Part shown: positions 24,272 through 56,560 of the stretch, piece by piece | Layout: each line of letters begins with the position of its first letter | Position numbering within the stretch: the stretch's first letter is position 1 | Assembly: GCA_001600635.1 (NCBI GenBank) | Contig: BCKL01000021.1 | Coordinates: forward strand, 186,001-250,000 | Length of the DNA: 64,000 bases | Direction: 5' to 3' | Source of the DNA: Leucosporidium creatinivorum | Taxonomy: Eukaryota; Basidiomycota; Microbotryomycetes; Leucosporidiales; Leucosporidiaceae | Made by a program: the position numbers and the translations under genes | The notes under the pieces: generated by a model | Told to the model about the DNA's origin: nothing | Database searches by the model: none | The model's input: the letters and a program-made list of their open reading frames with translations, nothing else

Positions 24272-25757
24272 ATGAATCTAGAGGATTCGGATACGCTGTC
24301 TTCCGTTTCCTCCTCCCTCTCCTCCGCCTCAGGCTCCAGCATCCGCTCGTCGTCGGCCGCTCCCCGACCTAGCAACGCACCGCGCGCTCGCTCTACCCGG
24401 ATTTCGGGCACCAACACGGGCTACTGGTGGAGAGAGGAGGAAGCGCTTCTGTGCGATGAGCTGGTCGCTGCTTACGGGACCGATCCCGTCGACTGGAAAG
24501 AGGTCGCGAGGGAGTTGGCAAGGCAGTGCCCTATGGACCCCGCTCCGGCGCGGACGGCACAGCAGTGTTCGGCCCGAGCAGGATACTTCAGTGAGTATTA
24601 GAGACAGCTCAGAAGCGGCGGAGTAGCTGACGAAGTTCCGCCGGAACAGGGAACCGCCGGGCGCCGAAGCGAGCGTACGGGAGGACCTTCTGGGATCTGG
24701 CTTCTTGGACGCAACTCGAGATTCAAGTAATCACTATGAAGAAGAAAAGCGGATCCGAACGTGTGACGGCCGCACAGTGGATGGAAGTCGGCGAGACGCT
24801 CGAGCCGAAGCGCTCCGGGGTGGCTTGCTCACATCGCTGGGTCATGGGTGCCCCGAGCCGTGGAGTCTACGTGCATGATCCTAGGGCTAAGACCAAGATT
24901 GATGAGGATCAAGGTGAGTCTCGACTGGTACTAGAGCAGATGTCCGAGGCCTGACTTGTCTCGTTTCTCCTTGCTCCACAGCTTCGAACCAACCCTCCTC
25001 CTCTACCCCTGCCTCCGTCTCCTCTGCTCGCCCTATGCGTAGCCTGAGTCCTCCCCAAGTCGAAGGTCTGATCACCGCCGCCGACCGCACCACACTCGTC
25101 ATCCGACCCTTCTTTGCCGAGGACGACGCCGAACTCCTTCGTCTTCACTCGAAGCATCCGCATCTTTACAAGACCATCGCACGGGCTATGAGACCTCAAC
25201 GCCACAAGAAGGATGTGAGGGCACGTCTGGAGCAATTGTACGAGATATTGCCGCCTCGAGCGAAGGCCGCCGAGCTGATCGTTCCCACTTTGCGTAGACT
25301 GGCCGAGGCTCCTCCCAAGTCGAGCACTCCCGCCTCTGCCTCGGCGAGCGCGTCCATGTTCCTGAAGCGATCCCTCTCGAGCTCCACCACCAGTCACCAT
25401 CCTTCGTCACCGCCGTCCAAGATTCCTCGTCTCTCTCCTCGCAACGATCCGGCGCCGTCTCCTCCACATTTCTCCTCTTTCAGCCGTGACGAGCGTGCAG
25501 CTAGGCGAGACCGCGCGAGGACGGGCACTCGAACAGTTGCGAAGGCGCGAGGTGGAAAGGAGAGCTCGGCGGAGGGCGGGGACATGGATTCGGAAGGGCT
25601 ACAGGCGGAGGTCAAGGGTTTGAAGAGGGAACTAGGCCAGCTCAAGAGGGTGCTGGGTCGGATGAAAGCTACGCCCAAAAAAAGAGCAGTAGGGAAGCCA
25701 GCTTCGCCGAAGGGCGGGAGCTTGCTGGGCCGTTGGGTGAAGCGTTGGTGGGGGTGA
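24272..25757 (+). CDS. Triple Myb/SANT-like repeat protein, SANT-b copy 2
   Basis: Outer gene of the 24-31 kb cassette. Three exons (24272-24590, 24650-24913, 24982-25757), 452 aa. Repeat 1 contains GYWWREEEALLCDELVAAYG, VDWKEVARELARQ and PAPARTAQQC, the last shared with SANT-b copies 1 and 3. Repeat 2 contains VTAAQWMEVGETLEPKRSG and CSHRW. Repeat 3 contains FFAEDDAELLRLHSKH then RAMRPQRHKKDVRARLEQL, closer to SANT-d. Unlike the other two SANT-b copies it keeps a long Ser/Pro-rich tail with a coiled coil (QAEVKGLKRELGQLKRVLG) and a basic end. It converges on homeobox copy 2. The gene is open throughout. Confidence 0.72.
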
Positions 25758-25964
25758 GAGAGGTGGACAAGTCCTCATGTAGTAGTATCGGAGCTGGATG
25801 CGTAATCTCCACTGCTGTTTAGGTCACTGAGCAGGTCAAAGCAAGTCGAGAGAGCAAGCGTACGCTGCTCATCTTCAGCAAGAAGGCGGCGGGTCGAAAT
25901 GTTGTCGGCGTTCCAAGTGTGCTTTCCAGTCGATTCCAGTAGCTTGACTCTCCCCCCGACGGAC

Positions 25965-27381
25965 TCAACCTCCTCCTTCGTCGGCCCAGAGCTCATCGAA
26001 CGAGAAGCGCTGCTCCATCAGCTTCACCTTGCCTTCCGTCGCCTTTCTGTACCAAGCCTCGAACTCCTCTTCCTCCTTCTCCTCATCCACAGGTAGTCTC
26101 GGCTGCAAAGGAAGCGCTCGAGGCTGCTTGTCGCCCGGTGGTGGATGGGCGTCGGTGCGAATTGCGGGAGGGTTGGCTTCAGCGTCCGAAAAGGGTGGCT
26201 GCTGGGCGCTCTGGCAAGTCAAGGACAAGCTAGGAGCCTCTGCATGGCTTTGTAGACTGTCGAAGGTGGCGGGACGACGAAGGAGGGGTTTGAGAAGCTG
26301 GTGTCGAGTGACCTCGGCGATGAGAGGATCGTCGGATTTGAGCTGGATGTGGAAGGCGGAGCTGTGGGTGGCTGCACGCTGGGCTGTGAAGTCGGCAGAG
26401 GGCTCCCATGGTGCTTTCGGCTCTCCGGGAATGGGTGCAGCTCGCTGGTAGTAGTCTGGGTGAAGTACGAGGTGGAGAGTGACGAGGGACTCGGAGTCGC
26501 GGAGCGTGAGGTGCGAAAGCTGGGCGAGGGGGATGTGGAGACGGTAGACGGTCTGTAGCGGAGTGCACTGATGTCAGCTAAAGCGGTGAGAGCAAACAGA
26601 GCGGCTAAGCTCACACGCTCATGACGAGTAGTGATCTCGACGGCTCCCGAGCATCCGACCGAGACGACCAGCGGCGCCTCGGACTGGCAACTGCGTCTCC
26701 ACTCTCCGATGGCGATGAACTCAGGTTCTAATACAATGCAGTCTATCGTTTCCCGAACGATGGGATGGTCAGCTCGTCGCTCCCTTCGACTCTTCGGCGA
26801 TGCCGAGCAAAGGCGACTCACCTTCGCACTCTTCGTGACCTGCGGCCAACTCCTGCTGCTCTGCGATCGACTCAAGGTCTTGGACGACGTTGCGTGATGT
26901 GGTGGCATGCTCGAGTGTCGCTGGGCTGTACTTCTCGGGAGACGAAGGAATGGGAGAGGGTCGCACGACTCCGCCAGCGCCGTCGCTGCCAGGAGAGGGT
27001 ACAGGCGGCGTCTCCAGCTTGACCTCCATCGCAGGGTCCTGCGCTTCGTCTTCACTGCTGAGCGTGCGGTCGGAGATGGCCGTCACATTGCCCGAGGCGC
27101 GGCGGCGAGGAGCAGGTCGTGGGCAAGTGCTGGCAGGCGTGGAAGATCTGCTCCTACGACGCTCCTGCTCGGTGTACCAGTCGCTAATAGCGCTCAGGGG
27201 TAGGTTCTTGAGCTTCTGGTGCTCCCGCGCGTGCTTCTCGAACGAGCGCTGCCGGGGAAAGTCGACGAGCAGCTGCTCGAGGATACGACGTTGGGCGGCG
27301 GAAGGGGCTGTTGCAAGGGAGCAGAAAGGTCAGCGATGTCGTGTAAGAAGCTCTGCAGCTATACTCACCCTTTGGAGCCAT
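25965..27381 (-). CDS. Homeobox transcription factor paralogue, copy 2
   Basis: Four exons (27381-27369, 27307-26822, 26742-26615, 26552-25965), 404 aa, intact ATG (MAPK). The first exon, first intron and homeodomain helix 1-2 region are near-identical to copies 1 and 3. From about helix 3 onward the protein is strongly diverged (recognition helix ISDWYTEQERRR). The second conserved domain is still recognisable: IGEWRRSCQSEAPLVVSVG, CSGAVEITTR and TVYRLHIPLAQLSHLTL. This makes it a genuine Phx1-like homeobox family member and not a decayed repeat. An acidic C-terminal tail (EEKEEEEFEAWY) is also shared. It is divergent from the Rec114-like gene at 27982 across about 0.6 kb. Confidence 0.75.
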
Positions 27382-27981
27382 GATGAGGTGTAGAACGAAA
27401 CGAGAGAGTGAGCGACGAGGGAGGAAGGAGAGCAAGAGAGCGATTCGGCGGAGGACTTTCGCTCGTCGTCTCGGGACTTTCTCAGCTCGGACTAGTTGCT
27501 GTCAGAGGATAAGCACAGACTGTGATGGATGTGCACGACCCGCGTCTCACATTATCGCACAGACCACAGGAGCTGACCGTCTCAAGGAGCTCAGTCCAGT
27601 GTGATCCGACTCGACTAGCGAAGCGTTCGGCAGAGCTGTAGCGGGTCAGCGATGAGCCTCTGCAGCCTGGTACGCTAGTACAATACTTATGGGAGTGCAA
27701 GCCACAGCTGAGCGAACGACCCGAGTCAATCGACTCACTCCGAAGGGGCAAAGTGAGCTGAGTCGAGCAGGCCGGCAACGCCGAGCGCCGAACAACTCTC
27801 CTACCGTTCCACACAGGATCAACGAAGGTGACAGAAGCGTGTTAGTACTCAACTACAACTCTTCATCCTTTCACGACAACATCACACAGACCCACCGCTG
27901 CCCTATCCCACCTCGGCCCTTCACCGCTTTTCTCCTTCTCCCTTCTTCCGCATCTTTTCGTCTCGCTCGCGACTCGCCAGG
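27382..27981. promoter_or_regulatory. Divergent promoter region of the 24-31 kb cassette
   Basis: Between homeobox copy 2 and the Rec114-like gene. Conserved over almost its whole length with 1-573 and 52935-53530, unusual for fungal intergenic DNA. The palindrome GAGTCAATCGACTC is at 27723-27736. No open frame worth calling. Co-regulation of both genes is inferred. Confidence 0.55.
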
Positions 27982-29085
27982 ATGCAGCCCTCGAGGACCA
28001 CGACTACCACCAAAGCTAGATGGATCCTCGAGAAGGTCTCCCGCTCCTTGTCGCCCAGCAGAGGCAGCAGAAACAGTCTCGACTCGCGAGGAGGCGGCGG
28101 CTTCAGCGAGGCAGCGCCAAAGCGAGCAGCTTTTGAGAGAATTGAATGGGAGCATCGGTGAATCTGAAGTAGCCTAACCCTGCTGCACGGAAGCTCGCTG
28201 ACGTCTCTGCACCTGTACAGCACCCAGAAGCAGCACTACCTCGAGCTTGAGACCGTGTCTGCCGTTACGGAGAACGGCTCGGCCCGCAAGCAGCTACAGA
28301 CGATGCACCTTCATATCCTCTTCGATTCGCTCGCTAGCTCGCATCCCAACAGCCCCTCGCCTTCGCATCAGCAAATCTCGCTTCTCTCGCTCGAGCTCAC
28401 CTCGTTCTCGTTGCCTTCCATCGCCGCTTGCACTCCTCAAGATCAGCTCCCTCTCAAAGCCGTCTACAAGGGATCGGTAGTCGGTATCCGCTACCTTCAC
28501 ATCCCGCCCGAGGAGCTGCCGAAAGGACGCCTCGCTGAAACCGAGTGGAAGCGGGTGCAGCTCAAGTTCGTCAGCGTTGAGGAGCGCAAGAGGTTCATCG
28601 AAGCTCTCAAGGGAGTCTGTCCTGTCAAGCTCGCCGATGGAGCGACCGAGGAGGATCAGCAGCTGCCCTCACCAAAGAAGTCGAGAGGGTCGAAAGAAGC
28701 AGAGGAAGGGCAAGCTGAAGCTACCGAGGACGATACTGCTATGCAGACTTCGCCCTCCGGGCTTGGACCTCCCCGTTCACTCGACCCGAACCCCCTCAGC
28801 ATCGAGCCGACGCCAGCTGCAGCCCACCCCGCCCCTCCTCGCTCGACCACCTCCTCGACCGCTTCTCAACCCTTCCCTCCTGCGGTCGCTGCTCTCCTTC
28901 CCAAGCTCGCCCAGACGCTCCAACCTCGAAGCAGCATTGAAGCTCTCGAGCGCACCTCGCGCGAGATGGCAGAGATGGATGAGGCGACTTTCGGCGCTCT
29001 GTTCGCCGAGGTCATCGCCGAGGACGGCTTTGACAAGCTGGTCGCGAAGGTGCAGGGCTGTCTGAATGCGAGGAAGAGCGATTAA
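27982..29085 (+). CDS. Rec114-like protein (open copy)
   Basis: Two exons (27982-28157, 28221-29085), 346 aa. After a basic, Ser-rich leader the region of about residues 55-185 reads as a PH-like fold: LELETVSAV, a beta-rich middle, LPLKAVYKG, then VQLKFVSVEERKRFIEALKG, ending in one helix. After an acidic, Pro-rich linker with KKSR, the C-terminus is FGALFAEVIAEDGFDKLVAK then VQGCL. This combination, an N-terminal PH-like domain plus a C-terminal helix with a ..DP/DxF..LV..V...L pattern, is the layout of Rec114/Rec7, which with Mei4 and Mer2 activates Spo11 breaks in meiosis. The match was made by eye; another PH-domain protein is possible. It is divergent from the homeobox gene and followed by SANT-a on the same strand. 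Confidence 0.6.
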
Positions 29086-29385
29086 TAGGTGATCGCCGTG
29101 GTTGAAATAGTTTTCGCAATGATACGGAGACTTGTCGAGCTACAAACGAGCGAGACCGGTGATAGAGAGGCAACAGACTGCCTTCTCGCTGCCTTTGAGA
29201 GGCAAATCTGAATCGTCTGCCGTCACCTTTTACCAGAGAAGCCCTGTTCTACCCTAGTTCCCATCGAATCGAAGTCAGCCCAAGGAGAACTGAGCGAGCG
29301 ATGACCCTCCGCTCGGAGCTCGAGCCGCTTCTTTGCTTCCTCCCGCTCGCTTCGCCTTTCCGCTTCCGACATCTCGCTGCTCGCC

Positions 29386-31164
29386 ATGGAGTCTCAAGAA
29401 AGCACAGGAGCCCCTACGACTCCTGCAATTACACGCTCCGCCTCCGCCCCCGCCACTCCTGCACAAACTGCTCCCTCGCCCGTCCCTTCGCCCGCACGAC
29501 CGCGCTGGAGGGACAAGGAAGCTTCTACGCTGGCCGAGCTCGTTGGGGAGCAGAACGGAAGCACTATCGATTGGGCTTTGATCACGAGCAAGCTCGCCGA
29601 GAGCTGTCCCCTACCGGCCGGAACGAGCGCTCGAACGGCGACCCAATGCTCGCACAAGTGGAAGAGACTGCAGAAAGACAGTGAATCTTCCAGCTGGTCC
29701 AGAGTGGAGTGGAGCCAGAACCTCATTGTCCGATTTACCATCAGAGCTAACGCCAGAGAAGCGCGCTTCATCGACCGGCGACCTCTCTCCTTCGCCTTCG
29801 AGGACTCGCAGCGTCAAACGACCCAGCACTTACGACGTCTACGAGACGAACCTGGAAGGACCGACGTTCAATCATGCTCTGGGCGCTCCTTTGAAGTGGG
29901 ACGACTCGGATAACGCTCAGCTGCTCTCGGCGTTGGCGAAGCTCGCGAAGCCGAGCGACTCGCTTGACGCAGACGAATGGGAGGAAGCCGAGCGACTCGC
30001 TTGACGCAGACGAATGGGAGGAGATTGGAGCTCAGCTTTTGCCGCCGAGATCTGGAAGAGCCTGCAAGATCAAGCTGGCTCAGTTGGAGAAGAGGGTCGG
30101 ACGCGGCTCAGGCGAGAATGACAAGAAGGAGCAGGGTAAGTCCTGTGCCGAAGCAAGCCCTTCCGCTCCAGTCCTGGCACTAACTGGCCTCTTCAGCCAC
30201 TCCCCAAGCCACCATCGACCTCACCACCGACGACACCCCTGCAGAACCGCCGCGCTCTGAGCTGCCCGTGTCGGTCGCTGACCAGCCCTTCACCGCCGAG
30301 GACGACCTCGAGCTGCTTCGCCTCAACGATGTCAAACCTGGGGGCTGGTTCAAGTGCATCTCGCGTCACATGAATCCCAAGCGCCACAAGAAGGAGGTCA
30401 AAGAGCGCCTCGAGCAGCTGTGAGCTTGAGTTTGCGATGCGACTCCGAGTCGAGTCGGCCGAGCTGACAGTGACACTCCTTTCGCCTTCCACAGACTCGC
30501 CCTTCGTGAGGATCAACGCCCAGCCAAGACTACCAGCTCGAGCAGAGGTCTCCGAGATGCTTCTTTGCCTTCCAAGAACCAATTGCCTCTCCTCCCTCGC
30601 ATCCAGATTGACGCTCCTTCGCCACCAAAGCGCCCTCGTCTTTCGCCTCCCTCGTCCACGACTTTCTCGATTTGTACGACTCCCAATGAGAAGATGATGG
30701 ACCTGCCCATCCAAGGAAGCGTGCTGGCCGGAGTCGGAGAGCTCTCTGGTGTCGAACCGAAGCCAGCTGAGGAAGCGATCGCAGGGCCGAGCGAGACGAT
30801 GGACGAGGACCTCATCTCCATCGAGCTTAGCAAGGGTACAGGTGAGCTCAGCAGCTACCGAATAGTCTCCGAGCTGATGCTGACTCTGCTCTTCCGTGAT
30901 GTAGCGCCTGGGCCCGATTCGAAACGCTCGAACGAGGCCAAGCTCGGCTCTGCACAGACCAGCACCACAACCACGGCTTCCGACCCGCTGAACTTGCCCA
31001 TCGGCTTCGTAGAGTCACTGCTCAACCTCGACAAGGTCGACTCGGATCCTCATACCGCCACCGACGACCTCGAGCCGACCGCCAGCGCCAACGCCGAGCC
31101 GAGAGTCACCCTTCAGGAAGCTTTGGCGGCGCTCGCGGAGCTCTGCAAGCCGTGGGAGGGCTAA
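29386..31164 (+). pseudogene. Triple Myb/SANT-like repeat protein, SANT-a copy 2, broken by a 37-bp tandem duplication
   Basis: Exons 29386-29680, 29745-30135, 30197-30419, 30495-30840 or so, and a last exon from about 30906 to 31164. Repeat 1 contains PRWRDKEASTLAELVG, IDWALITSKLAES and ATQCSHKW. Repeat 2 contains LKWDDSDNAQLLSALAKL, EWEEIGAQLLPPRSG and CKIKL. Repeat 3 contains FTAEDDLELLRLN then RHMNPKRHKKEV. The tail ends TLQEALAALAELCKPW, the family C-terminal motif. In exon 2, bases 29948-29984 are repeated exactly at 29985-30021. The intact paralogue at 49804-51531 has one unit. Adding 37 nt shifts the frame and stops translation soon after DEWEEAERLA. The remainder is otherwise open, so the break is recent or an assembly error. 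Confidence 0.65.
29948..30021 (+). repeat. Exact 37-bp tandem duplication
   Basis: Two identical 37-nt units, 29948-29984 and 29985-30021, each starting AAGCCGAGCGACTCGC. They lie in repeat 2 of SANT-a copy 2. The inverted paralogue has a single unit. Confidence 0.95.
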
Positions 31165-31450
31165 AAGTAGCATCAGCGGTCTGAAATGTGGATAGCTCCG
31201 ACAGAGCGGTCGAAGGCTGAGCAAAAGGGTGGTAGGACCTTGAAATCGAGTTCGGCGCACATGCGCAGGACGACGACCAGGCTGCTAGCTCTGGGATGAG
31301 CCTGTGAGTGACGTAAAAGGTGTTCTTGCTGCCGCCAGCCCTTTTCGAGGCGCTGCGATCGGTCGGAGAGCTTGCCGAAGAGGTGACTTTCGCGAACTCG
31401 CTGCGAAACGGGTTGCTCTCCCACCTTCACCTCGTCTTTCTTCGATCAGC

Positions 31451-33760
31451 ATGGCGTTCCGTCCGAGAGCTGTAGCTGTCAAAGCCAAGAAGGCAGCTGC
31501 ATCTGCAGCATCTACAGCATCGACTGCAACATCTCCTTCAACTTCCACCAGCGCCCTAGCTTCGACATCGACTACCAGCGCCTCAATCGCGGCAGCTCAG
31601 CGTGCAGCATCGACGAGCAACCCTACTACAGGCGACCTGGCCATGGCCGGCGATTCTGAGCCCATCGCAAGCACCTCTCGCGCGCTCGCCGCCGTCAAGC
31701 TGGATCACAAGGAAGAGCAGCGACTCGAAACTCTGCTATCGGTCATCGAATCATGTTTCTGTGACTGGGGACTCTCTGCACACCGAAGCTCAGGGCTGCT
31801 GGAGTTGCTTGAGGCGAGCAAAGACGACTGTGAGTTTGCGTCGCTTTCTGAGAGCTAAAGTTGGGGAGAAGCTGATCCTGGGTATCTTGCAGACGTTCAT
31901 CTACAACATGTGCTCAAGCTGCAACCTGTTCGAGCTCTCACCGACAACCAAGCCGACGTGCAGAAGGCGCTCAAGCTCCGTCCTTCGCCTTCGTTGACCG
32001 TGAGTCGCCTTGAACTCGGTTCTTGAGAGCTGAGCTGACCCTTCATACTCTTCACATCAGCTCCACGACTCTGGCTTCCAGCTCCGCCGCACCGTCACCC
32101 CCAATTTCGAGCGCCTGAAGCTGATGCAACCCGCCGACTGGGACGTTATGGCGATCTACCTCGTGAGCTCTATCGCTGCAAGATGTGCTCCCTAGCCTCT
32201 GACACCCCTCATACTGTACAGGAGAACATCCCCGCCGTCCCTTCCGCCCCGGACTCGCCCAGCTCTCTCTCCACCTTCCTCTCGGCTCTCCTCTCCTCTC
32301 AGCTCCAGCGGCTCGTCCTCCCACCAATCTACGACCCCGCCAACCCTCCAGCAGAACACAGCCAGCCTCAAACATCCGCCAACGACCAGTCCGAGGTATT
32401 CGCCAAGGCTCAGGCTGCAGCGAGTGGGAAGGAGAGCGTCCGCCGAGGTCTGGGACTGCCAACCGGCGGTGGACCCTTCCGAGGCTTTGCTTTCGCTGTG
32501 TTAGAGACGAAGGAGGATGCCGATAGGGTACTCCAGACATGGGCGTGGGAGAAGACCGCTGTGGAAGGCGAGAGCGACGCTGAGGAGGTCAAGATGGAGG
32601 AGGATGGCGAGGAGGGCAAGCCCGCTTTGACGGATCCGACGATCTTGGCGCGGAGGAGCGGTTTCCGCACGCTCAGCTAGTGAGTTTGCCTCCGTACTCG
32701 GTCTCGGTCTCCCATTAACTGACCTCTCTTGCTTCACAGCGCTCGCTGGCTCGACCTCAAGGCCGAGTACCTCGACTACCAGCACCACCTCACCACCCTC
32801 CGCAACTCGCACGACCGCGAGCGCAAATCTCAAGCCTATCAGCAGCGGTCTCGCCGCTCTGCCTCCCCTCCACGGCCCTCCCGCGCCGATCAGCACCGAG
32901 AAGCTCGCGAGCGCGAGGACAACTACGGCCCACCACCGCACCAATCCTCCTCTGCCAAGAAGGGCAAGCGACCTACCGACCACGAGGCGAAAGAGGAGCG
33001 ACCATCGAAGAAGGCGAGACGAGCCAGCGTGTCGGTGCCGGTGCCGGGAGGTCAGAGGCAAGGGAGGCCGGGGACGCCAGAGCCGCTGGGCGATGATGTG
33101 GCGCCGGATAGCGAGGAAGCGTTGGCCAAGAGAGGTGCTTTCCCGAAAGGGTGCATCTTGTGGGTGAGGAATGTGCATGAGAAGAGCACGAAGACCAGCT
33201 TGAAGACGGTTCTGAGCGGGCTGTTGGAGGAGCTGGAGGAAGGTAGTGGGAGGGGAGTCGAGTTCGTCGATTACGAGAAGGGTCTCGACGTAGTGCGTAG
33301 TCGCTCGCTATCCCTGTCTGCGCTCTGCTGACCCTTTCTATCCCAGTGTCATGTCCGCTTCTCCTCCTCCCACCTCGCCTCCGTCATGCTAGACCATTTC
33401 ACCAACTCGACCTGCACACACCTCGCACCGACCTACATCTCCTCGCCTCAATCCACCGCCACTCCTCCCGAAGGCATCATCCACGACCCTCACCGTCGCT
33501 CCATCGCCGCCCAACTCCTCGAAGGCGAGCGCGAGCGGCTCTACTGGCAGAACCTGCCGGAGAGTACTCGTAGGGGCGCTAGGAAGAGCGCAGCGGGACC
33601 TGTGGCGCTGGTGAAGGAGAAGAGGAAGCTCGAGGAGGGCGCCGAGGGCGAGGATGAGAAGAGGCGGAGGCTAGAAGCAGAAGAAGAGCAAAGGAAGAGA
33701 GAGCGGGAGAAGGCCAACGAGGAGGAGAAGCGACCGAGGAAGAAGCCTAGCAAGTTCTGA
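31451..33760 (+). CDS. La-module RNA-binding protein, LARP7/Pof8 type
   Basis: Six exons (31451-31829, 31893-31999, 32061-32162, 32222-32679, 32740-33292, 33347-33760), 670 aa. An Ala/Ser/Thr-rich leader precedes a La motif (LETLLSVIESCFCDWGL, YVHLQHVLKLQPVRAL, VQKALKLRPSPSL, GFQLRRT). Then RRM1 follows (WDVMAIYLENIP, then FRGFAFAVLETKEDADRVL). A basic Ser/Arg linker leads to a C-terminal xRRM-like domain (GCILWVRNVHEKSTKTSLK, VEFVDYEKGLDVCHVRF) and a charged helix. La motif, RRM1 and xRRM together define the LARP7 family. Its fission-yeast member Pof8 helps assemble telomerase RNA, and the human member binds 7SK. A telomerase role here is inference. The first La aromatic positions are weakly conserved. 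Confidence 0.72.
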
Positions 33761-33919
33761 GCTGCATTGTAGCACAGAGATGCTTCATAAGTCCATCTAC
33801 AGCGCCGAGAGAGCAGAACGAGAGCGCCGAACTCGAACATAGTACCGACTCCCCTCTCCGCTCTCTTCGGCGGCGGCGAACGATCTGCTGTATGGCTTGA
33901 CATCATTCTATTTCTGGTC

Positions 33920-34678
33920 TCATGCTTTAGGCAAGTGAGCACTTTCAAGATCCGGCAGCACCTCGCCCTTCGGCACTCCCTCGACCGGACTTCCCTCTGC
34001 CGACGCCTTGGCTGCGATTTCTTCCGGGGAAAGATAGACGTCCTTGGTAGCCTGGAGGAGCTCGTAAAGCTGTCCGATTTGGTCGGCCGAGAGCTAGCGA
34101 TGGTGAAGAGCGGTCAGCGCTCGAGGTCGTCTGTGGCTCGTTCTGCTAGGCCGTAACGCCAGCCCGAGCAGGACAAGCTACTCGATGATAGCAACAATCT
34201 GCTCACCTTCTCGAAGAGCGCCTCCTGCAGCTTCTGACCCTCCCGCTGCCTCTGTCCAACTCCTCCCTCCAGCTCGCCCGCGTCGACCGCTACCTGAGTC
34301 TCATGGAAGTCGAGGTACTTCTTCCACTCGCTCAGGAATCCAACAATGTGCAGTGGGTTGTCGGTGGTGCGAGTCCGGCGGAACTCAGCCTGCGGTGAAA
34401 GTCGGGGGTCAGCTCAGCTCGAGTGGCGGCCCAGGAAGCGTCTTGTAGGGCAGCAGGAAGCAGAGATGCAAGCTCACCTTGACATACTCATCGCCCATGA
34501 CCCTCATCTCGATCGGCAGAGCCTTGCGATGAATCCTCAGCAGCCGGCGATAAAGAGGGAGTGGTGGGAGGAGCTGCGAGGCGACTTCGGCGGTGGCGGG
34601 AGAAGTGAAGGCTGATGTAGTGAGTGCGGATTTGCTGGTTGCTGCTGCGTGGCGAAGGGCGCTGGGACGGAACGACAT
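33920..34678 (-). CDS. SDH7: Succinate dehydrogenase assembly factor 3 (ACN9/Sdh7 family)
   Basis: Three exons (34678-34478, 34389-34207, 34093-33920), 185 aa. A Ser/Ala/Arg presequence for mitochondria is followed by the LYR-type motif in [20 protein letters not shown], then [35 protein letters not shown] and a C-terminal helix ending [20 protein letters not shown]. This is the full SDHAF3 pattern. The factor protects or matures the iron-sulphur subunit of complex II in the matrix (family knowledge). Its 3' end converges on the La-module gene with about 160 bp between. Confidence 0.88.
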
Positions 34679-34959
34679 GGCGGCGAAGAGTGAGAGGGAG
34701 AGCCAGAAATCGACTGCTCGGCGCGAAGCAGTTCGCTAAATCGCCGTCTCCCAATTTCTTGCAGTCATTCGTAGAGCGTGCTAGCTGTGTGAGCTGCTAT
34801 ATATCACCTCGCCTCGACTTACGCTGCCGCTTCGCGAATGAGTCTTGCTCGGTGCTCGGAGAACCTTCGCATCGCATGATCACTGCGGCGCGCTAGCAAA
34901 GGCAACAACGCGGCCGAGAGAACGACGGTATACTGCAAATGTGCTCCAAGCTCTATCCA

Positions 34960-45134: not shown

Positions 45135-45305
45135 ATAGTGTACTTAGGTGGAAGAGCAGGATCATAGACGATTTACAGAAGCGAGCGAGCCCCCTTGCCC
45201 TTGACCGAGCGAGGGTTGACCTGCCAGCTCCGAGATGCGAGCTGCCTGAGCTCTCCGGATCCAGGCTCTCCTTCCGCTCATCCTCCTCGACTCGACACTC
45301 GACTG

Positions 45306-46022: not shown

Positions 46023-46158
46023 GTTCTTCCCTTCTTTCCCCCTCGCTGCTCGGTATCGGTCGGGAGATCAGATCACTCGAGCGCGACTGCTCTGCTCTGC
46101 TCTACTCGACGACGATCCGATCCGAACGCTCGCTGACCCTCGCGTCGAACCGACCGCA

Positions 46159-49100
46159 ATGAGCAGAGCCGAATCCCGCGCCCTCGCTTCCTCGCTTCCT
46201 CCTCCTCCATCCGCTCTCTCTCCCAGCACCTCCCCCTCGACCTCCGAAGACGAAGAAGAAGAAGAAGAAGACGACACCGAGCCTCCCTCGGACCTAACCT
46301 CTCGTCTCCCTCTCCACTCTCATCCTTCTCGCCCCTCCTCCCGGCGTCGTCCTCACCCCTCCTCGTCGCTCTCTTCCTCTTCACGTGGCTCACGGCGTCG
46401 AGGCGGCCCCATCGGCGGTCTTCTCAGCGGCGGGGGAGTCGGACGTCTCTCGGCCAGGGAGAAGGCCTTGTGGAGGTGGATCAACGTCGAGGATTTGGAT
46501 GGGTTCTTGCAGAAAGTGTACCTTTATTATGTGGGCAAGGGGGCTTGGACAATGGTACTTGGGAGGGTGGTGGATCTGCTGTGAGTTGCTCTTGCTTTCT
46601 CGGCGATGCGATGAGGTGCGAGGGAGGGAAAGGAGGAGCTGACCCGCTTGTGTCGATCGCGATGGGGGTAATTTTCGTAGGACGGTCGGATGGGTCATCT
46701 CCTTCTCTACCTTTCTGGTCGGGTGCATTGATTATAGCAGGCTTTGGGAGGCGAAGAGCTTGAGTGAGGTGGTGGTGCCGCAGTGCGTAGCTCGGTGCGC
46801 TTTCTTCTCTCCCCTTCTTTCTCCTCCCCTTCTCCTCCTCGCTAACCTCTCCGTCCCTCGCTGTATCGCAGCTTCTCCACCCTCCACACCCTCCTCTTCC
46901 TCTCCTTCTCCTCGTTCTATCTGTACCGACTTGTGACGTTTGGGTTGGGAGTGAGAGAGCTGTGGGAGATGAAGGCTTTCTTTGAGGAGTTGTTGGGAGT
47001 GGGGGAGGTGAGTTCATGTCCCTCGGCGGTGGTGGAGGGGGAAAGGAGATGTGAGGGAGCAGGAGAAGGAGAGGGAGCGCCGAGCTGACTCTAGCGTCGC
47101 CTCCTTCTCCCCCCTCCTCCACCCCTCCACCTCCACCGCCCTGTTCGCCACCTATATCGACACTTCAAACACAACACACAGAACGACATCCAAACGATCC
47201 CCTGGTCCCTCATCGTCACTCGTCTCTCCGCCCTGCGCGCTTCCCACCCCTCCGCTCTCTCCTCCCGCTCCCACTCCCACTCCCACTCCACCACCCAAAC
47301 GCAAAGGCTCGACGCCCACGACATCGCCAACCGCATCATGCGGGAAGAGAACTACCTCATCGCCTTGTTCAACAAAGACGTGTTGGACTTGTCGGTGCCG
47401 TGGCCTAGTTGGGCGCCGAGCTGGTTGCGCGAGAGAGCAGGAGGAGGGGGGAAGGGCATGTTGACCAAGACGCTGCAGTGGAATTTGGAGTTTTGTTTGG
47501 TCGGCTTCTTGTTTGGGAGGGATGGGCAGGTGAGGAGGGCGTTTCTTGGGGAGAGGAATAAGCGGGAGTTGGTGGAGACGTGAGTCGTTTCGGGTCTTGC
47601 TCCTCGTCTCGCTCAGAGGGCGGCAAGTGGGGAATGGGATGCTGATTGATAATGCTCGGGAACAGACTCAAACGCCGCTTCATCCTCATGGGCATCATCA
47701 ACGCCGTTTTTGCCCCCTTCATCGTCCTCTACCTCCTCATGTACTCCTTCTTCCGCTACTTCGAGGTTCGGTCTTTCCCTCCATCCTTCTCCCACTCCAC
47801 TAACCTTCACCAACCACACAGGAGTACCACCAAAACCCCTCCTCCATAGGCTCACGCACCTTCACCCCCCTCGCCCGCTGGCACTTTCGCGAATTCAACG
47901 AACTGCCCCACCTCTTCTCCCACCGGCTCTCCCTCGCCCACCCCCTCGCAGCAACCTACATAGCTCAATTCCCAAAGGCCAAAACAGCCCTCCTCTCGCG
48001 TTTCGTCGCCTTCGTCGCCGGCTCCTTCGCTGCCGTGCTCATCCTCTTCTCCCTCATCGACCCCGATGCTTTCCTCCATTTTGAGGTCACGAGGGGAAGG
48101 ACGACGTTGTTTTATATTGGCGTTTTTGGGGGCGTGCTCGCTGTGGCTAGGGGGATGGTGCCCGAGGAGCATAGGGTTGTGGATCCCGAGGAGACGATGA
48201 GGAGGATTGTGGAGCTGACGCATTATTGCCCTGAGGAGTGGAGGGGGAGGTTGCATAGCGCTGAGGTGGGTGGCCGTTTTCACTCGCCATCTTCGCCTTC
48301 GCCCGAGGGGGCCTGTCGAACGCCGAGCTGACCCCTTCCTCGCTCCTGCGCCGCGCAGGTCCACACCACATTCTCCTCCCTCTTCCCGATGAAACTCCTC
48401 CTCTTCTTCCAAGAGCTCTCCTCCGTCCTCCTCACCCCCTTCATCCTCTTCTACTCGCTCCCCTCCTGCGCCGGCCCCATCGTCGACTTCTTCCGAGAGT
48501 TCACGGTCCATGTGGATGGACTGGGGTATGTTTGTAGTTTTGCGGTGTTTGACTTCAAGAGGCATGGGGATGTTAGGGTGAGTTTGGTGGATCTGTTTTG
48601 AGCGTCGAGCGTAAGCGCAGAGCCGAACTGACCCTTCTTGCCGATCACAGTTCGGCGCGCCGGTACAGGTGCAGGATGAGCGGTGGAAGAGTGGGGAGGG
48701 CAAGATGGAGAAGAGCTTTCTCAACTTTGCTGCTGTACGTCTCTCGTCTCGACTCTTTGCGCTGCTTGCCTCGAATCTCGCTGACTTCCTCCACTCTTCC
48801 TCCCTTCACCTTTCTGCTGTCACTCACCACCTTTGGACTGAACAGCACAACCCCTCCTGGATCCCCCGCGACCAGACGCAATCCCTCTTCCTCAGCAAGA
48901 TGACCGAAGGAGGCTCGGCCGGCGCCCCTCAGCCTGCCTCCGCTCCCCCTCCCCGCTCAACAGCAACAGGCCTTCACCCCCGTTTCTCCTCCTCCAACCC
49001 TCATGCTCGCTCTTCCAGTCGCGGACAGCGCTACGCCGGCGGAGGGCTCGGCGCTTCCATTTTGGAGGAAGGGTCGACGTTCGGGAACCTCGCTACTGGG

Positions 49101-49523
49101 CTCAGCGCAGGAGGAGGAGGAGGAGGAGGAGGGGCGCCGAGCCTCCCCTCCTCTCGCATCCTCGAACCATCCTCAGCGCCTCGAGGCTCCCGCCTCCGGC
49201 CCTCCACCCTCATCTCTCCCCCTTCCTCCCGCCTCGGCGTTGGGTCTCCTCCGCACTCTCTCGCTCGTCCAGCACACTCACCATCCACCTCGAGGTCACA
49301 GAAGGAGGAGGAAGATCCCATCGTCGAGGAGTCGCACCTCGATGGCCAGTCCTTCGTGGCTCCTACTGAGGGTCGACCGTTCGGCTTGTCTTCGGCGGAG
49401 GAGGAGGAACAGGGGATGGGAGAGATTGAAGGGGAGTCGAGGTTGGGTGATGGAGGGGATGGGCAGCAGAGGCTGGGGGGGATGCTCAGGGAGTTGTATG
49501 GAATGCAGGAGAGGAGGTGGTAG
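46159..49523 (+). CDS. ATG9: Autophagy lipid scramblase ATG9
   Basis: Multi-spanning protein of Golgi-derived vesicles that seed the autophagosome and scramble phospholipids. Nine exons (46159-46580, 46681-46782, 46872-47007, 47182-47579, 47666-47765, 47822-48265, 48359-48577, 48651-48734, 48846-49523), 860 aa. Disordered N-terminus, then EKALWRWINVEDLDGFLQKV, membrane segment VGWVISFSTFLVGCIDYSRL, NDIQTIPWSLIVTRL, IANRIMREENYLIALFNKDV, FILMGIINAVFAPFIVLYLL, EFNELPHLFSHRL, AKTALLSRFVAFVAGSFAAV, FYIGVFGGVLAVARGMVPEE, YCPEEWRGRLHSAEVHTTFS and IVDFFREFTVHVDGLGYVCS, all typical ATG9 core blocks. The donor of intron 5 (GTTCGG) is unusual. The C-terminal tail is Gly/Ser-rich. Confidence 0.93.
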
Positions 49524-49803
49524 GCTGGTGTCGTGTCGAGATTTAGTGTAGAGCTGTGCTGTAGACTCGTCTTGTCGTTCAACTTGTGATACTCGCTCAG
49601 ATCCGTTCATTTCCATGCGTCGTCCGTCGAGATCGAGAAGTGGCCGGTCGGGGCTCGTCATTTAGAGGCAGTCGGCGGAGAAGCAGCTCGGCGCCGAGCA
49701 AAGCCGGCAGCCCGGGACGTGGCTTTCTCTCGGCTTGGCTATGCATTAGATCGACGAAGAGTCAAGAGTGTATTCCTATCTGCTACTGCAAGCTACGACC
49801 AGC

Positions 49804-51531
49804 TCAGAACGGCTGCGACAGCACTTCGAGCGCCAGCAAAGCTTCCTCAAGCGTTCCAGTGAGCTCGGCGTTTAAACCCATGAGCGGGAAAGGAGGTTGA
49901 GGACGGGTGGAGGTGGTCGCTTCGGGTGTAGTGGTATGCTTGATGTGCTGACGCACGGGAACATGCGGAGGAGGAGCGCTGAACACGCGAGTGAAGTCGG
50001 AGCTCGGCGCCGAGTCGAACTCGGGAGCGCTGGAACTCTTTAGCTTGGTCTCGGGCGCTTCTGTCCGGGTGACGGAGCGTATTCAGTGTTAGTAAAGAAG
50101 CCGCACTTCCAGAGCAAAGCTCACCTGCGGCCGGTTTGGGCTGCATCGCGACGGTGTCGGCCACCATCATTTCCCTCGTCGGGGGCATCGCTTGCTCCTT
50201 CGGCTCAGAACCGCCACGAGAGACCGCTCCCACGTTAAGGAGAAGCTCATCTCGGATTTGATGGTTGATGCATGCTTCCTCCGAGGTCGATTGGGCTTCA
50301 GTGGTGGCGAGAGAAGGCGAGAGACGACAGCGTTTCGGCGACGAGGGGCGGTCGAGCTCAATGGGGGAGAGAGCAAGCTGCTGCTGCTCGGTAGGAGGCA
50401 CGACAGGACGAGATGAATTGTTGGCGTAGCTGGGAGGCTGAGGCTGCTGCTGATTACGGCGGGAGAGTCTAGTGAAAGCGAGGAGGAGTCAGCTCAGCCT
50501 ACGAGTCGACTCCCATCGCACAGCTTAAGCTCACAGCTGCTCCAGACGCTCCGTGACCTCTTTCTTGTGGCGCTTAGGCGTCATCAGACGCGAAATCCTC
50601 TTGTACCGCCCGCCTGGATGCTTGGTGTTGAGGCGCAGAAGCTCGAGATCGTCCTCGGCGGTGAAGGGCTGGTCAGCGACCGACACGGGCAGCTCAGAGC
50701 GCGGCGGTTCTGCAGGGGTGTCGTCGGTGGTGAGGTCGATGGTGGCTTGGGGAGTGGCTGAAGAAGCCAGTTAGTGCCAGGACTGGAGCGGACGAGCTTG
50801 CTTCGGCACGGGACTTACCCTGCTCCTTCTTGTCATCCTCGCCTGAGCTGTGTCCGACCCTCTTCCCCAACTGAGCCAGTTTGATCTTGCAGGCTCTTCC
50901 AGATCTCGGCGGCAAAAGCTGAGCTCCAATCTCCTCCCATTCGTCTGCGTCAAGCGAGTCGCTCGGCTTCTCGAGCTTCGCCAACGCCGAGAGCAGCTGA
51001 GCGTTATCCGAGTCGTCCCACTTCAAAGGAGCGCCTAGAGCATGACTGAACGTCGGTCCCCTCAGGTTCGTCTCGTAGATGTCGTAAGTGCTGGGTCTTT
51101 TGACGCTGCGAGTCCTCGAAGGCGAAGGAGAGAGGTCGCCGGTCGATGAAGCGCGCTTCTCTGGCGTTAGCTCTGATGGTAAATCGGACAATGAGGTTTT
51201 GGCTCCACTCCACTCTGGACCAGCTAGAAGACTCACTGTCTTTCTGCAGTCGCTTCCACTTGTCCGAGCACTGAGTCGCCGTTCGAGCGCTCGTTCCGGC
51301 AGGCAAGGGGCAGCTCTCGGCGAGCTTGCTCGTGATCACAGCCCAATCGATAGTGCTTTCGTTCTGCTCCCCTACCAGCTCGGCCAGCGTAGAAGCTTCC
51401 TTGTCCCTCCAGCGCGGTCGTGCGGGCGAAGGGGCGGGCGAGGGAGCAGTTTGTGCAGGAGTGGCGGGGGCGGAGGCGGAGCGTGTGATTGCAGGAGTCG
51501 TGGGAGCTCCTGTGCTTTCTTGAGACTCCAT
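49804..51531 (-). CDS. Triple Myb/SANT-like repeat protein, SANT-a copy 3 (open)
   Basis: Open counterpart of the broken gene at 29386-31164. The first three repeats are near-identical to it (PRWRDKEASTLAELVG; DEWEEIGAQLLPPRSG; FTAEDDLELLRLN), with one copy of the 37-nt segment. After repeat 3 the two proteins diverge abruptly: this one continues LLSRRNQQQPQPPSYANN and ends TLEEALLALEVLSQPF, still with the family C-terminal pattern. All junctions join in frame (donors GTGAGT, GTAAGT, GTGAGC, GTGAGC). It lies 2.1 kb from homeobox copy 3 with the Rec114-like gene between, all from inverted cassette 3. Confidence 0.72.
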
Positions 51532-51832
51532 GGCGAGCAGCGAGATGTCGGAAGCGGAAAGACGAAGCGAGCGGGAGGAAGCAAAGAAGCGGTTCGAGCT
51601 TCGGAGCGGAGGGTCATCGCTCGCTCAGCGCTCCTTGGGCTGACTTCGATTCGATGGGGACTAGGGTAGAACAGAGCTTCTCTGGTATAAGGTGACGGCA
51701 GACCATTCAGATTTGCCCTTCAAGAGCAGCGAGAAGGCAGTCTGTGGCCTCTCTCACCGGTCTCGCTCGTTTTGTAGCTCGTCAAGTCTCCGTATCGTTG
51801 CGAGCACTATCTCAAACCACGGCGATCACCTA

Positions 51833-52934
51833 TTAATCGCTCTTCCTCGCATTCAGACAGCCCTGCACCTTCGCGACCAGCTTGTCAAAGCCGTCCTCGG
51901 CGACGACCTCGGCGAAAAGAGCGGCGAAAGTCACCTCGTCCATCTCTGCCATCTCCAGCGAGGTGTGTTCGAGAGCTTCAATGCTGCTTCGAGGTTGGAG
52001 CGTCTGGGCGAGCTTGGGAAGGAGAGCTGCGATGGCAGGAGGGAGGGGTTGAGAAGCGGTCGAGGAGGTGGTCGAGCGAGGAGGGGCAGGGTGGGCTGCA
52101 ACTGGCGTCCCCTCGATGCTGAGGGGGTTCGGGGCGAGCGATCGAAGAGATTGCAACCCGTGTGACGAAGTCTGCATAGCTGTATCGTCCTCAGTAGCTC
52201 CAGCTTGCCCTCCCTCTGCTTCTTTCGACCTTCTCGACTTCTTCGGCGACGGCAGCTGCTGATCCTCCTCAGTCGCTCCATCGGCGAGCTTGACGGGGTA
52301 TACTCTTTTAATCGCCTCGATGAACCTATTGCGCTCATCGACGCTGACGAATTTGAGCTGCACCCGCTTCCACTCGGTTTCAGCGAGGCGCCCCTTGGGC
52401 AGCTCCTCGGGCGAGATGCGAAGGTAGCGGATACCGACTACCGATCCCTTGTAGACGGCTTTGAGAGGGAGCTGATCTTGAGGAGTGCAAGCGGCGATGG
52501 AAGGTAACGAGAAAGAGGTGAGCTCGAGCGAGAGAAGGGAGATCTGCTGATGTGCAGGTGAGGGCGATTCAGGGTGGGAAGCGGCGAGCGAGTCGAAAAG
52601 GATCGAGGTGCATCTTCTGCAGCTGTTGGCGAGGAGAGCTGTTATCCGAGACGGCAGACACGGTCTCGAACTCGAGGTAGTGCTGCTTCTGGGTGCTGTA
52701 CAGGTGCAGAGACGTCAGCGCGCTTCCGTACAGCAGGGTTAGGCTACTTTAGACTCACCGATGCTCCCATTCGATCCTATCAAGAGCTGCTCGCTTCGTC
52801 GCCGACTCCCCAAAGCCGCCGCCTCCTCGCGAGTCGACGCTGTTTCTGCTGCCTCTGCTGGGCGACAAGGAGCGGGAGACCTTCTCGAGGATCCATCTAG
52901 CTTTGGTGGTAGTCGTAGTGCTCGAAGGCTGCAT
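51833..52934 (-). pseudogene. Rec114-like protein, copy 3 (frameshifted)
   Basis: Exon 1 runs 52934-52759 (MQPSSTTTTTKARWILEKVS) and exon 2 from 52695. It matches the open copy at 27982-29085 closely, including VQLKFVSVDERNRFIEAIKR and the C-terminal GFDKLVAKVQGCLNARKSD. Near 52601-52607 it has two bases fewer than the other copy (CACCTCGATCC against CACCTTCATATCC). The frame shifts and meets TGA within about 15 codons, inside the PH-like region. Past this point the original frame is open again to the end. A recent loss of function is likely unless the indel is a sequencing error. Confidence 0.6.
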
Positions 52935-53530
52935 CCTGGCGAGTTGAGAGCGAGACGAAAAGCTGTGGAAGAAGCGAGAAGGAGAGAAGCGGTGAAGGGC
53001 CGATGTAGGATAGGGCAGCGGTGGGTCTGTGTGATGTTGCAGTGAAAGGATGCCGAGTTGTAGTGGAGTAGTGCTAATCTTTCGCTGCGTTCGTTGATCC
53101 TGTGTGGAGCTGTAGGAGACTTGTTCGGCGCTCGGCGTTGCCGGGCTGCTCGGCTCAGCTCACTTTTGCCCCTTCGGAGTGAGTCGATTGACTCGGGTCT
53201 CTCGCTCAGCTGTAGCGTGCACTTTCAAACCTACTGTACCGGCGTATCAGCCTGCAGAACCAAATGACGAGTTACAGCTGTGCGAAACGCCTCGCTAGTT
53301 GAGTCGGATCACACTGGACTGAGCTCCTTGCGACGTTCCGCTCCTGTGGTCTGTGCGATATTGTGAGACGCGGTTTGTGCACATCCATCACAGTCTGTGC
53401 TCATCCTTCAACAGGGACTAAGCCGAGCTGGGAAACTCCGAGACGACGAGCGAAAGTCCTCCGCCGAATCGCCCTCTTGCTCTCCTTCCTCCCTTGTCGC
53501 TCACTCTCTCGTCTCGTTCTGCACCTCATC
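52935..53530. promoter_or_regulatory. Divergent promoter region of the 50-57 kb cassette
   Basis: Third copy of the conserved interval between Rec114-like and homeobox genes. The palindrome GAGTCGATTGACTC is at 53181-53194, and GAGTCGGATCACACTGGACT, shared with the other copies, lies near 53300. The last 100 bp before the ATG at 53531 are a CT-rich leader identical in layout to copies 1 and 2. Confidence 0.55.
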
Positions 53531-55123
53531 ATGGCTCCAAAGGGTGAGTATTGGTGCAGGGCTTCGTATACGACATCGCTGACCTATCTGCACCCTTACG
53601 ACAGTCCCCTCTACCGCTCAACGTCGCATCCTCGAGCAGCTGCTCGTCGACTTTCCCCGGCAGCGCTCGTTCGAGAAGCAAGCGCGCGAGCACCAGTCGC
53701 TCAAAAGCCTACCTACCAAGAGTATCACTGCATGGTACACCGAGCAGGAGCGCCTCAAGACCACCCTTTCCAGCACCACTCGAGCTCGCTCCGCCCTTCG
53801 TCCTCGTCCGCTGGTCATCACTTCGTCGTCGTCGGCGTCGGGCAGTGCGACTCCCATCTCCGCTCGCTCGGTCGGAGCTGATGAGCAGAAGAAGCAACGT
53901 ACGGTGGACATCAAGATGGCAACGCCTCCCGCTACACCCATCAGGCCCAGCAGCGGAAGAGCGAGCGCCGAAGTCGTGCGACCTTCGCCCATTCGCTCGT
54001 CGCCCAAAAAGTACAGCCCGACGACCCTCTGCCATCCCGTCGAGTCAAGAGATGTGGTTGGCGATCTGGAGTCTATCGTCGAGCAGAAGGAGCCTCAGCT
54101 CGTGCCCGTTCACGCTGGATGCGAAGGTGAGTGGTTCGGTGTTCGTTCACCGGACAGAGCGCAGAGAAGCTGACCTCTTCGCTGCCCTCATTCTACAGAG
54201 TGCGTCCGACTCAAGCCTGTATCCCTCACCGTCGGAGCCTGGAAGCGCGATAACAAGCCTCAAGCCCCGCTCAACGTCTCGGTCGAATGCTCGGGCGCCA
54301 TCGAGATCACGACTCGTGAGGGAAATGTATGTTGAGCTCCTGTTCTCGTCTTGAGGAGGCTATCTGACGCTTCTTTACCTCGCTACAGACCCTCTACCGC
54401 TTCCACATCCCCCTCGCCCAACTCTCGCACCTCACCCTCCAATCCTCGCTTCTCACGCTCAACCTCCTCCTCCCTCCCAAGTTCTACCAACGCCCTATCA
54501 ACCCTCCTGGCGCGCTCAAATCACAATGGAAGCCCTGCAACGACTTTACACCCCACCACGAAGCGACCTACAGCTCCATCTTCCTCCTTCAACTCGACCC
54601 CAACCATCGCTCCACCGCCGACCTCGCTCGCAACGCGCTCCTCAAGCCTTTGATGCTCCTCCTTCCTCCTACGCCAACCGAGATTAAGTCGGACTTCCCC
54701 ACTTTTCCAACCACCGCCACCACCTCCAGCGCGCACCCTCCCGCTCCATCCTCCAACGCCGGAGCGCCGACTTCTCGCCTCTTCCTCGCCGCTCACTCGC
54801 AAGCGGTCGCGCAACGTACCGCCTTCATTCAGTCGCAGCCTCTCCAGCTTCAGCAAACGCACTTCCAGCCTCCTCCTCCCGTCTACGCCATTGCGCACAC
54901 CTGCAACTGTCCCTCGTGCCCTCCCTCACCTTCGCCGTATCATCAGCGGGCCTCTCCTCCTCTCGAGTTCATCTCCATCTCGCCCCACGAGGAGGAGAGG
55001 GGGCTTGAGGCGTGGTACAACTCTACGGGAGGTCGAACCGAAGCGATTAGCGAGATGGAGGTCGATAGTATCTGGAGCTCGGTGAAGGATGAGGACAAGA
55101 TGAGGTTGGATCAGAGGTGGTGA
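53531..55123 (+). CDS. Homeobox transcription factor paralogue, copy 3
   Basis: Four exons (53531-53543, 53605-54126, 54199-54326, 54389-55123), 465 aa, with intact ATG. Homeodomain-like region at about residues 8-55 (RRILEQLLVDFPRQRSFEK, SITAWYTEQERLK), then a Ser/Pro-rich linker, then the Phx1-like domain (VGAWKRDNKPQAPLNVSVEC, GAIEITTRE, TLYRFHIPLAQLSHLTLQ, CNDFTPHHEATYSSIFLLQL). The C-terminal acidic motif is EAISEMEVDSIWSSV. It is near-identical to copy 1 along its whole length and like copy 2 only at the N-terminus. Predicted nuclear transcription factor; target sites unknown, with the shared palindrome upstream a candidate (inference). Confidence 0.78.
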
Positions 55124-55470
55124 TGAGCTTTTAGTGAGAGGGAGGAAGATTGGGAGATGGAGTAGAGCGGGGGGAGAAGTACTTGTACAGCGACTGGCCG
55201 CGCCAGCGGGCAGCGGCGGTCGTTCGGGGGCTGAGTATCGCCCTCTTGTCAATTTTCTGTAATTTGGTCAAGTCAAAAGCACTGTATGAGCGCTCTGTAA
55301 AGTCATCTCGATTGAAGCAGAACTCTTGGAGCACAGGAAGCGAGAGTCGAGAGGCGAGAGCTGATAGTGAGCAAGAAGACCTCATCAGCGACGGCTCTCG
55401 TTCGCCCAGTCGCTCTGCTCGTCCATCAGATTCGCTTCGTCGTTTCAAGAGAGTTCACAGATACGTCTGG

Positions 55471-56560
55471 CTACTCTTGAAAAGCGAAGAAGGTACCTAA
55501 CTCGTAAGACTGCAGCCTGAGAATCGAGAATCGAAGTCAGCTCTCAGCCGAGCTCATTCCTCGCCGGTCAGAAAGGTGGATTGGAGAACGCACAGATAGC
55601 CCACTCGCTCGTTGACCTCCTTCTTGTGTCTTTGAGGCTTCATGGCGCGCGAGATGGTGTTGTAGGCGGGTCCCTTGAGGTGGTAAAGCTCCAGCAGCTG
55701 CTCGTCGTCCTCGGGCGAGAAGGGTCGTTTGGCGTTGGAGACGAAATTGGAGGGCCCTGGTGGAAGTCGGAGTTCTTTTTGACTAGAAGCGATGGTCGGC
55801 TGAGCGGTCGACGAAAATGTCCCTTTGGCTAGGGAGGAAGTGAAGAGCCCGTCGTCTAAAGAGCGAAAGGGCAAGGTCAGATCGGGAGCGATGTGGACGG
55901 CACGACATAAGCGAGGGAGGCAGCTCACCGCGACCGTTCGACTGAGGGACATCGACTGCCACTGCTCTCGCAGCACCGTACCCGGGCGGCCCGCCGGTGG
56001 TCCACCGCAGAAGGCAAGCCTTCGCCGAGCGCTTCGGCACCAACGTCGCTCCGATGTTTTCCCACTGCTTCACAGTCAGCTCCGTCGTATCTTGCGAATC
56101 CATCAGCTTCATCGCCGCCTTCTCGAGCTGCTCCCAACTTGCGTGGCTCCAGAATCCGGGAGTCGTCCAAGTGTTTGAGCGCCGTTCTGCGAATTGAGGC
56201 GCCTTGGATCGGCAAAGCGGGGGACGGAGGCACGCAGCAGTACTCACATAAATTCATCCATCGTCCTGAGCACTGCTTAGCTGTCCTCGCCGGCGCTGGA
56301 TCCATGGGGCACAGCCTCGCCAGGTCTCTTGCCACCTCGTTCCAGTCGACAACGCTCTTCCCGTACCTCTCGACAAGCTCGAGAAACAATCCAGCCTCCT
56401 CATCTCTCCACCAGTAGCTGCCCTCCGCTTTCTTGACCGGAGTTGTCACGAAGCGAGGAGCGGACCGGCCAGGCGATCCGGGGCGACTGCTGGGAGCGGA
56501 AGAGAGCGGGGAGGAGCTTGAAGAAGCAGCTATAGGTGTGTTGGAGTCGTACAAGTCCAT
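55471..56560 (-). CDS. Triple Myb/SANT-like repeat protein, SANT-b copy 3 (possibly truncated)
   Basis: Starts MDLYDSNTPIAASSSSSPLS. Repeat 1 contains SYWWRDEEAGLFLELVERYG, VDWNEVARDLARL and PAPARTAKQC. Repeat 2 contains GFWSHASWEQLEKAAMKLMD, LTVKQWENIGATLVPKRSA and CLLRW. Repeat 3 contains FSPEDDEQLLELYHLKGP then RAMKPQRHKKEV. The short last exon ends QSYELGTFFAFQE, like copy 1, without the C-terminal motif. Joining the visible GTGAGT donor of exon 1 (after WMNLC codons begin) to the only nearby CAG acceptor creates an in-frame TAA. Either another splice site is used or this copy yields only repeat 1. The 3' region shared with copy 1 includes the end of the homeobox gene. Confidence 0.58.

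Follow-up and report, generated by a model that had tools for sequence, protein, structure and literature searches.

Mosaic divergence among three copies of a homeodomain-like and SANT gene cassette in Leucosporidium creatinivorum

Basidiomycete homeodomain (HD) mating loci contain divergent homeodomain genes, with diverged versions lying in conserved flanks; Hoy1, in turn, acts in hyphal growth. For Phx1 of fission yeast, PMC3438059 describes a role in long-term survival and meiotic sporulation. The subject of this work is a gene cassette of the basidiomycete Leucosporidium creatinivorum (assembly GCA_001600635.1, 27.7 Mb in 63 contigs), in which a homeobox/PH gene and a small gene, labelled Rec114-like in a first-pass annotation, are transcribed divergently and are flanked by two genes for SANT proteins (SANT-a and SANT-b). 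The window, i.e. the whole stretch of DNA analysed, comprises 64,000 nucleotides and corresponds to positions 186001-250000 of contig 21 (C21; BCKL01000021.1); positions preceded by C21 are those of the contig, and all others refer to the window. Among the matches listed in a literature search there was no paper on such a cassette.

Arrangement of the cassettes and their mosaic divergence

C21 carries three cassettes, named A, B and C, with the order SANT-a, homeobox, Rec114-like, SANT-b, C being inverted with respect to B (Table 1). Self-comparison of the window aligned 26287-30468 of B with 54648-50488 of C at 83.5% identity over 4.2 kb, and, once the contig to the left of the window was added, A with C at 88.5% over 4.3 kb; such similarity is far above chance. 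With this flank, cassette A also proved complete, its Rec114-like and SANT-b genes being located at C21:183.6-186.0 kb, just outside the window, so that A (as completed from the genome), B and C have identical gene order and orientation. Thus, the recurring cassette, the third copy cut at the left edge, the joint duplication of linked families and the divergent transcription of the homeobox and Rec114-like genes from a common interval of about 600 bp, all proposed in the first-pass annotation, are confirmed here. The models of these two genes were built by hand, keeping the splice sites that are conserved between copies, and gave four exons for the homeobox gene in A, B and C and two for the Rec114-like gene (348 amino acids in A).

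Identity along the cassette is distributed in blocks with sharp edges. The core, corresponding to bins 27235-29419 and containing the interval and the Rec114-like gene, is 79-97% identical in all three pairs. Between 25867 and 27234, in the homeobox gene, A and C are 83-95% identical, and B has only 46-70% identity with either; across the initial kilobase of SANT-b (29420-30403) it is B and C that agree, at 86-96% (about 95% DNA identity over the first 800 bp), and A that differs, at 51-74%. Beyond 30403, identity of B and C in SANT-b also drops, to 45-64%. The sites unique to one copy follow the same pattern, with 293 in B, 26 in A and 25 in C for the homeobox body, and 351 in A, 30 in B and 25 in C for SANT-b; within the core itself, the pattern shifts along the sequence (317 sites, chi-square 73, a value not reached in any of 2000 shuffles). 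Synonymous divergence between A and B is 0.82 for the homeobox gene versus 0.24 for the neighbouring Rec114-like gene (Fisher p = 1e-14 for the homeobox gene after codon 50). Since divergence is mosaic by these measures, it indicates exchange between cassettes rather than a duplication of single age; linkage arising from one recent segmental duplication, which the first-pass annotation had set against its own proposal, does not fit the pattern in this genome. From its sequence, cassette C seems to combine two kinds of cassette, being A-like on the homeobox side and B-like on the SANT-b side. The ratio of nonsynonymous to synonymous divergence (dN/dS), obtained with one simple counting method, stays under 1 in all segments counted, being about 0.28 for Rec114-like in A-B, 0.31 for homeobox in A-C and 0.52 for homeobox in A-B.

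At E values up to 1, the divergent interval is matched at four places in the genome, namely in A, B and C and at C21:252798-253209, which belongs to a partial locus, named D, just to the right of the window (C21:251.3-254.9 kb). The D interval is 81% identical, in a match covering 407 of 612 bases. Two CACAGAC sites lie 44 bp apart in all four intervals (27514 and 27558 in B), one of them inside the palindrome CACAGACTGTG, and 11 of the 23 CACAGAC sites found in 134 kb fall within the four intervals; since these are homologous, the pair is a candidate, not a proven, control element. The arrangement suggests that the homeobox/PH gene and its neighbour are co-expressed from the shared interval.

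The gene of locus D, a relative of the homeobox gene, starts at the same interval and contains a PH exon (C21:251795-252145) 26% identical to that of B, with no recognisable homeodomain; the locus gave no Rec114-like match, and a SANT-a gene occupies the corresponding place. Therefore the gene set, described in the first-pass annotation as recurring together, does not always do so. SANT genes are also present outside the cassettes.

Table 1. Features of the window, by cassette, followed by other genes
Feature	Position in window	Strand	Details
SANT-a, cassette B	24272-25757	+	repeats 24419-24583, 24688-24843, 25107-25241; repeat scan
Homeobox/PH gene, cassette B	25965-27381	-	4 exons: 27381-27369, 27307-26822, 26742-26615, 26552-25965; 404 amino acids
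Divergent interval, cassette B	27382-27981		CACAGAC at 27514, 27558, 27885
Rec114-like gene, cassette B	27982-29085	+	63-bp intron 28158-28220; 346 amino acids, open frame
SANT-b, cassette B	29386-31164	+	repeats 29503-29670, 29931-30080, 30286-30420
SANT-b, cassette C	50534-51531	-	span from 5' end through third repeat
Rec114-like gene, cassette C	51833-52934	-	frame broken
Divergent interval, cassette C	52935-53530		87% to B
Homeobox/PH gene, cassette C	53531-55123	+	465 amino acids, open frame
SANT-a, cassette C	55593-56416	-	repeats 55593-55724, 55999-56154, 56249-56416; span of repeats
Divergent interval, cassette A	1-573		part inside window
Homeobox/PH gene, cassette A	574-2166	+	465-codon frame, start codon lost
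SANT-a, cassette A	2649-3482	-	three repeats; span of repeats
Triple-SANT gene outside cassettes	4252-5072	-	repeats only
Triple-SANT gene outside cassettes	6100-7111	-	repeats only
MYND protein	9.2-11.4 kb		
NMT1/THI5-like gene	40.6 kb		
SAM decarboxylase	56931-58286		
DNA ligase parts	59.9-62.7 kb		

Properties of the encoded proteins

In the AlphaFold model of the homeobox exon, the first 50 residues have a mean predicted local distance difference test score (pLDDT) of 94-96 and form three helices (3-15, 19-28 and a long third one, 37-53), the remainder being poorly predicted. Foldseek returned 16 PDB matches, five of them homeodomain structures, including Pdx1 with a target template modelling (TM) score of 0.66, two POU-domain structures and nine neither. 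The three confidently modelled helices support a homeodomain-like fold, as the homeobox call of the first-pass annotation had supposed. All three members, which are paralogues, weakly match PF24818 (PH_TRF2_HOY1) in their second part, at E=0.0014; in the D protein the PH part matched only PH_fung_RdRP, at E=0.07. A Pfam search of the genome for PF24818 gave nothing, introns splitting these genes, and the same PH domain was absent from the scanned pieces of a canonical homeobox gene on contig 4. The combination of homeodomain-like helices with a PH-like part looks like a divergent HOY1-like architecture.

The SANT proteins are recognised by Pfam. Of eight single-frame pieces, taken without alteration from SANT-a of B and from SANT-b of B and C, seven match Myb models, three of them above cut-off: SANT-b of B matches Myb_DNA-bind_6 with its first repeat (E=2.8e-6, above cut-off), all three pieces of SANT-b of C have Myb matches, two above cut-off, and in SANT-a of B two of three pieces match below cut-off and the middle one does not match. 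The initial SANT call is thus supported. In a tree of the joined three repeats from 11 genes, the SANT-b genes of A, B and C group together (89/88), as do the SANT-a genes of A, B, C and D (84/82), both groups being below the mark for strong support.

The Rec114 label, on the contrary, was not borne out. No family was found in Pfam or NCBIfam, one copy giving Ssr4_C at E=0.077; a PDB profile search yielded only two chance-like chains (E 0.17 and 0.19), and hhalign gave a probability of 0.1% against the PH domain of mouse REC114, although three near-identical copies make a weak profile, with which a remote homology could be missed. With its mean pLDDT of 40, the AlphaFold model is uninformative for both the PH fold and the C-terminal Mei4-binding helix. 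A search of the genome for PF03525, in which genes of this kind are split by introns, returned nothing; no control match was obtained either, so that the search says nothing. Rec114 identity is thus without support from any of these approaches, and the argument that a meiotic-break-like protein takes part in the cassette loses its support with the label.

Copy number, SANT relatives and genomic surroundings

Genome searches found three copies of the Rec114-like gene, all on C21, the seven other matches among the 11 listed having E values of at least 0.018, and three copies of the homeobox exon, also all on C21, with nine other matches among the 12 listed at E values of at least 0.07. The PH exon occurs four times on C21, the fourth relative being that of locus D, and the PH exon of B also matched contig 8 (E=0.004, 30% identity, with an internal stop) and contig 1 (E=0.23). 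No Rec114-like relatives were found in general genome contigs and no homeobox-exon relatives in viral contigs, both being poor places to look for a fungus. Apart from weak matches, then, the families were found on one contig only.

SANT coordinates rest on repeats located by a scan, whose profile was seeded with the SANT-a repeats of cassette B. In 134 kb plus three further stretches (16.5 kb), it gave 54 matches, five of them weak (E>0.2) and 49 in two clusters: the first comprises nine triple genes, and the 16.5 kb read of the second (C21:371-422 kb) includes nine R3 repeats, for 18 clear R3 repeats in the two C21 clusters. Searches for the SANT family placed 20 of 20 listed matches, and 18 of 19 in another search (the remaining one at E=0.66), on C21, these counts being lower bounds. 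In the 16.5 kb read of the second cluster there was no convincing homeobox/PH or Rec114-like match; one stretch reached E=0.016 with the homeobox profile, with 0.81 for the best single domain, and Pfam calls it Myb. Since the window also contains two extra triple-SANT genes and the second cluster lacks a cassette, part of the SANT genes lie outside the cassettes.

Ordinary genes sit between or beside the cassettes (Table 1), which are therefore dispersed local duplicates and not one contiguous array. The window contains 73 open reading frames with 150 amino acids or more, and no transposase was found among the 20 of them that were scanned, the cassette ends having had no separate terminal-repeat search, and an Rfam scan of the window detected no RNA family at threshold. 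A second local duplication is present nearby, as window positions 17382-20412 (3 kb, including a DUF1264 gene) are 92% identical to C21:150436-153457. Contig 13 carries homeodomain matches at 384720 and 406751, in equal open frames of 461 amino acids that lie 22 kb apart in opposite orientation, perhaps another inverted local duplication. Elsewhere in the genome, a divergent homeodomain gene pair of HD1/HD2 type, one member with a Mating_N domain, was found on contig 24, contig 25 has an STE3 receptor, and contig 2 gave a weak SPO11-like match (E=2e-4); this set would be consistent with a sexual basidiomycete.

Interpretation and comparison with described systems

The cassettes probably represent a locally amplified regulatory gene cluster that evolves in concert and may be decaying in part; this reading is favoured here without being secure. 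According to it, the block of SANT-a, homeodomain/PH protein, divergent interval, small protein and SANT-b was tripled on one contig, with one copy inverted, and ectopic gene conversion or crossing-over would have kept the middle 2.2 kb alike, the outer gene bodies having diverged. The homeodomain/PH protein would most likely be a DNA-binding factor of divergent HOY1 type and might be co-expressed with the small protein via the shared interval; the SANT proteins, judging from their domains, would bind DNA or chromatin. By analogy with the HOY1/Phx1 proteins of other organisms, a developmental role, whether hyphal, sexual or in sporulation, would be reasonable, albeit unproven.

Several observations weigh against this interpretation. 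Regarding the homeodomain, none of the Foldseek matches had E<1 (the best being 2.2), the WFxNxR motif is absent from the third helix, where A, B and C read WYTEQER, Pfam homeodomain models gave no match at E values up to 10, and a profile comparison with seven homeodomains, in which the tryptophans align, was not significant; the PF24818 match, at 19 bits, is below the cut-off of 24. Regarding the SANT genes, the R3-only tree (18 rows) places SANT-a of B with a non-cassette gene (88/88) and SANT-b of A outside those of B and C, and the SANT-a genes do not resolve in the R1-only tree. In the R3-only tree, moreover, SANT-a of A, C and D are joined by two genes of the second cluster (98/95); the SANT genes may themselves be mosaic. 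Finally, no cassette is free of a damaged gene: the homeobox gene of A has lost its start codon, the second SANT-b repeat of B is thrown out of frame by a 37-bp tandem duplication (29948-30021), of which C has one unit, and the Rec114-like frame of C is broken by a deletion of 2 bases near 52603. The homeobox and Rec114-like frames of B are open.

These lesions, together with the absence of both homeodomain and Rec114-like gene in D, are what would be expected from plain decay, in which segmental duplicates turn into pseudogenes and the shared middle reflects recent copying only. This alternative is rather unlikely, since the branch of the C Rec114-like gene still has a low dN/dS (about 0.17, by rough subtraction) and the homeobox gene of A and C can be read through 465 codons without interruption, so that any loss would be recent in each cassette. 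Furthermore, the lesions are letters of the assembly, and some could be assembly errors.

It is quite improbable that a Rec114 meiotic-break protein and its regulators act as a unit in a sexual or genome-conflict role: the divergent promoter and the SPO11-like match would fit such a unit, but the likeness to Rec114 is a mere impression, judged by eye, of a strand-rich N-terminal part followed by a helical C-terminus, and no sequence or structure match emerged in any test. Even less credit is given to a combinatorial recognition locus, in which diverged homeobox and SANT-b types flanking a conserved core are shuffled like the specificity alleles of an HD locus; the existence of two types each of homeobox and SANT-b around an almost identical core, the mixed cassette C and the very different coding sequence behind the D interval would agree with it, but the HD1/HD2 pair lies on contig 24 and dN/dS never reaches 1 in the segments counted. 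A specificity system outside the mating locus, whose conversion-prone core would carry the promoters and whose recombination would yield new combinations such as C, seems a similarly slim prospect. A copy of the mating locus is ruled out by the position of that pair.

For the favoured reading of a cluster in concerted evolution, the distinctive trait is that several unrelated regulatory families were duplicated as a block, with the core homogenised and the ends diverging. Since, weak matches aside, the families were found on C21 only, the formation and decay of new regulators could be followed on this contig. If the types segregated in populations, the cassettes would be candidates for a recognition system; failing that, they are a worked example of concerted evolution.

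Among described systems, the HD1/HD2 mating locus shares with the cassettes a divergently transcribed homeodomain gene and diverged versions in conserved flanks; however, the partner gene of the cassettes has no homeodomain match and their copies are paralogues in one genome. The tandem homeobox arrays of the mammalian PRD class, as presented in PMC8208926, are similar in having local homeobox duplicates with loss and conversion, whereas here several unrelated families are co-duplicated and have a homogenised core in common. At the protein level, there is a resemblance to HOY1/Phx1 (PF24818), in which an N-terminal three-helix homeodomain-like segment is likewise followed by a PH-like domain, matched by all three cassette members; unlike those proteins, the cassette products score below the curated cut-off, lack WFxNxR in the third helix and have 404-465 amino acids, and their homeodomain-like part begins at about residue 6, whereas in the 942-amino-acid Phx1 it spans 167-227, according to PMC3438059.

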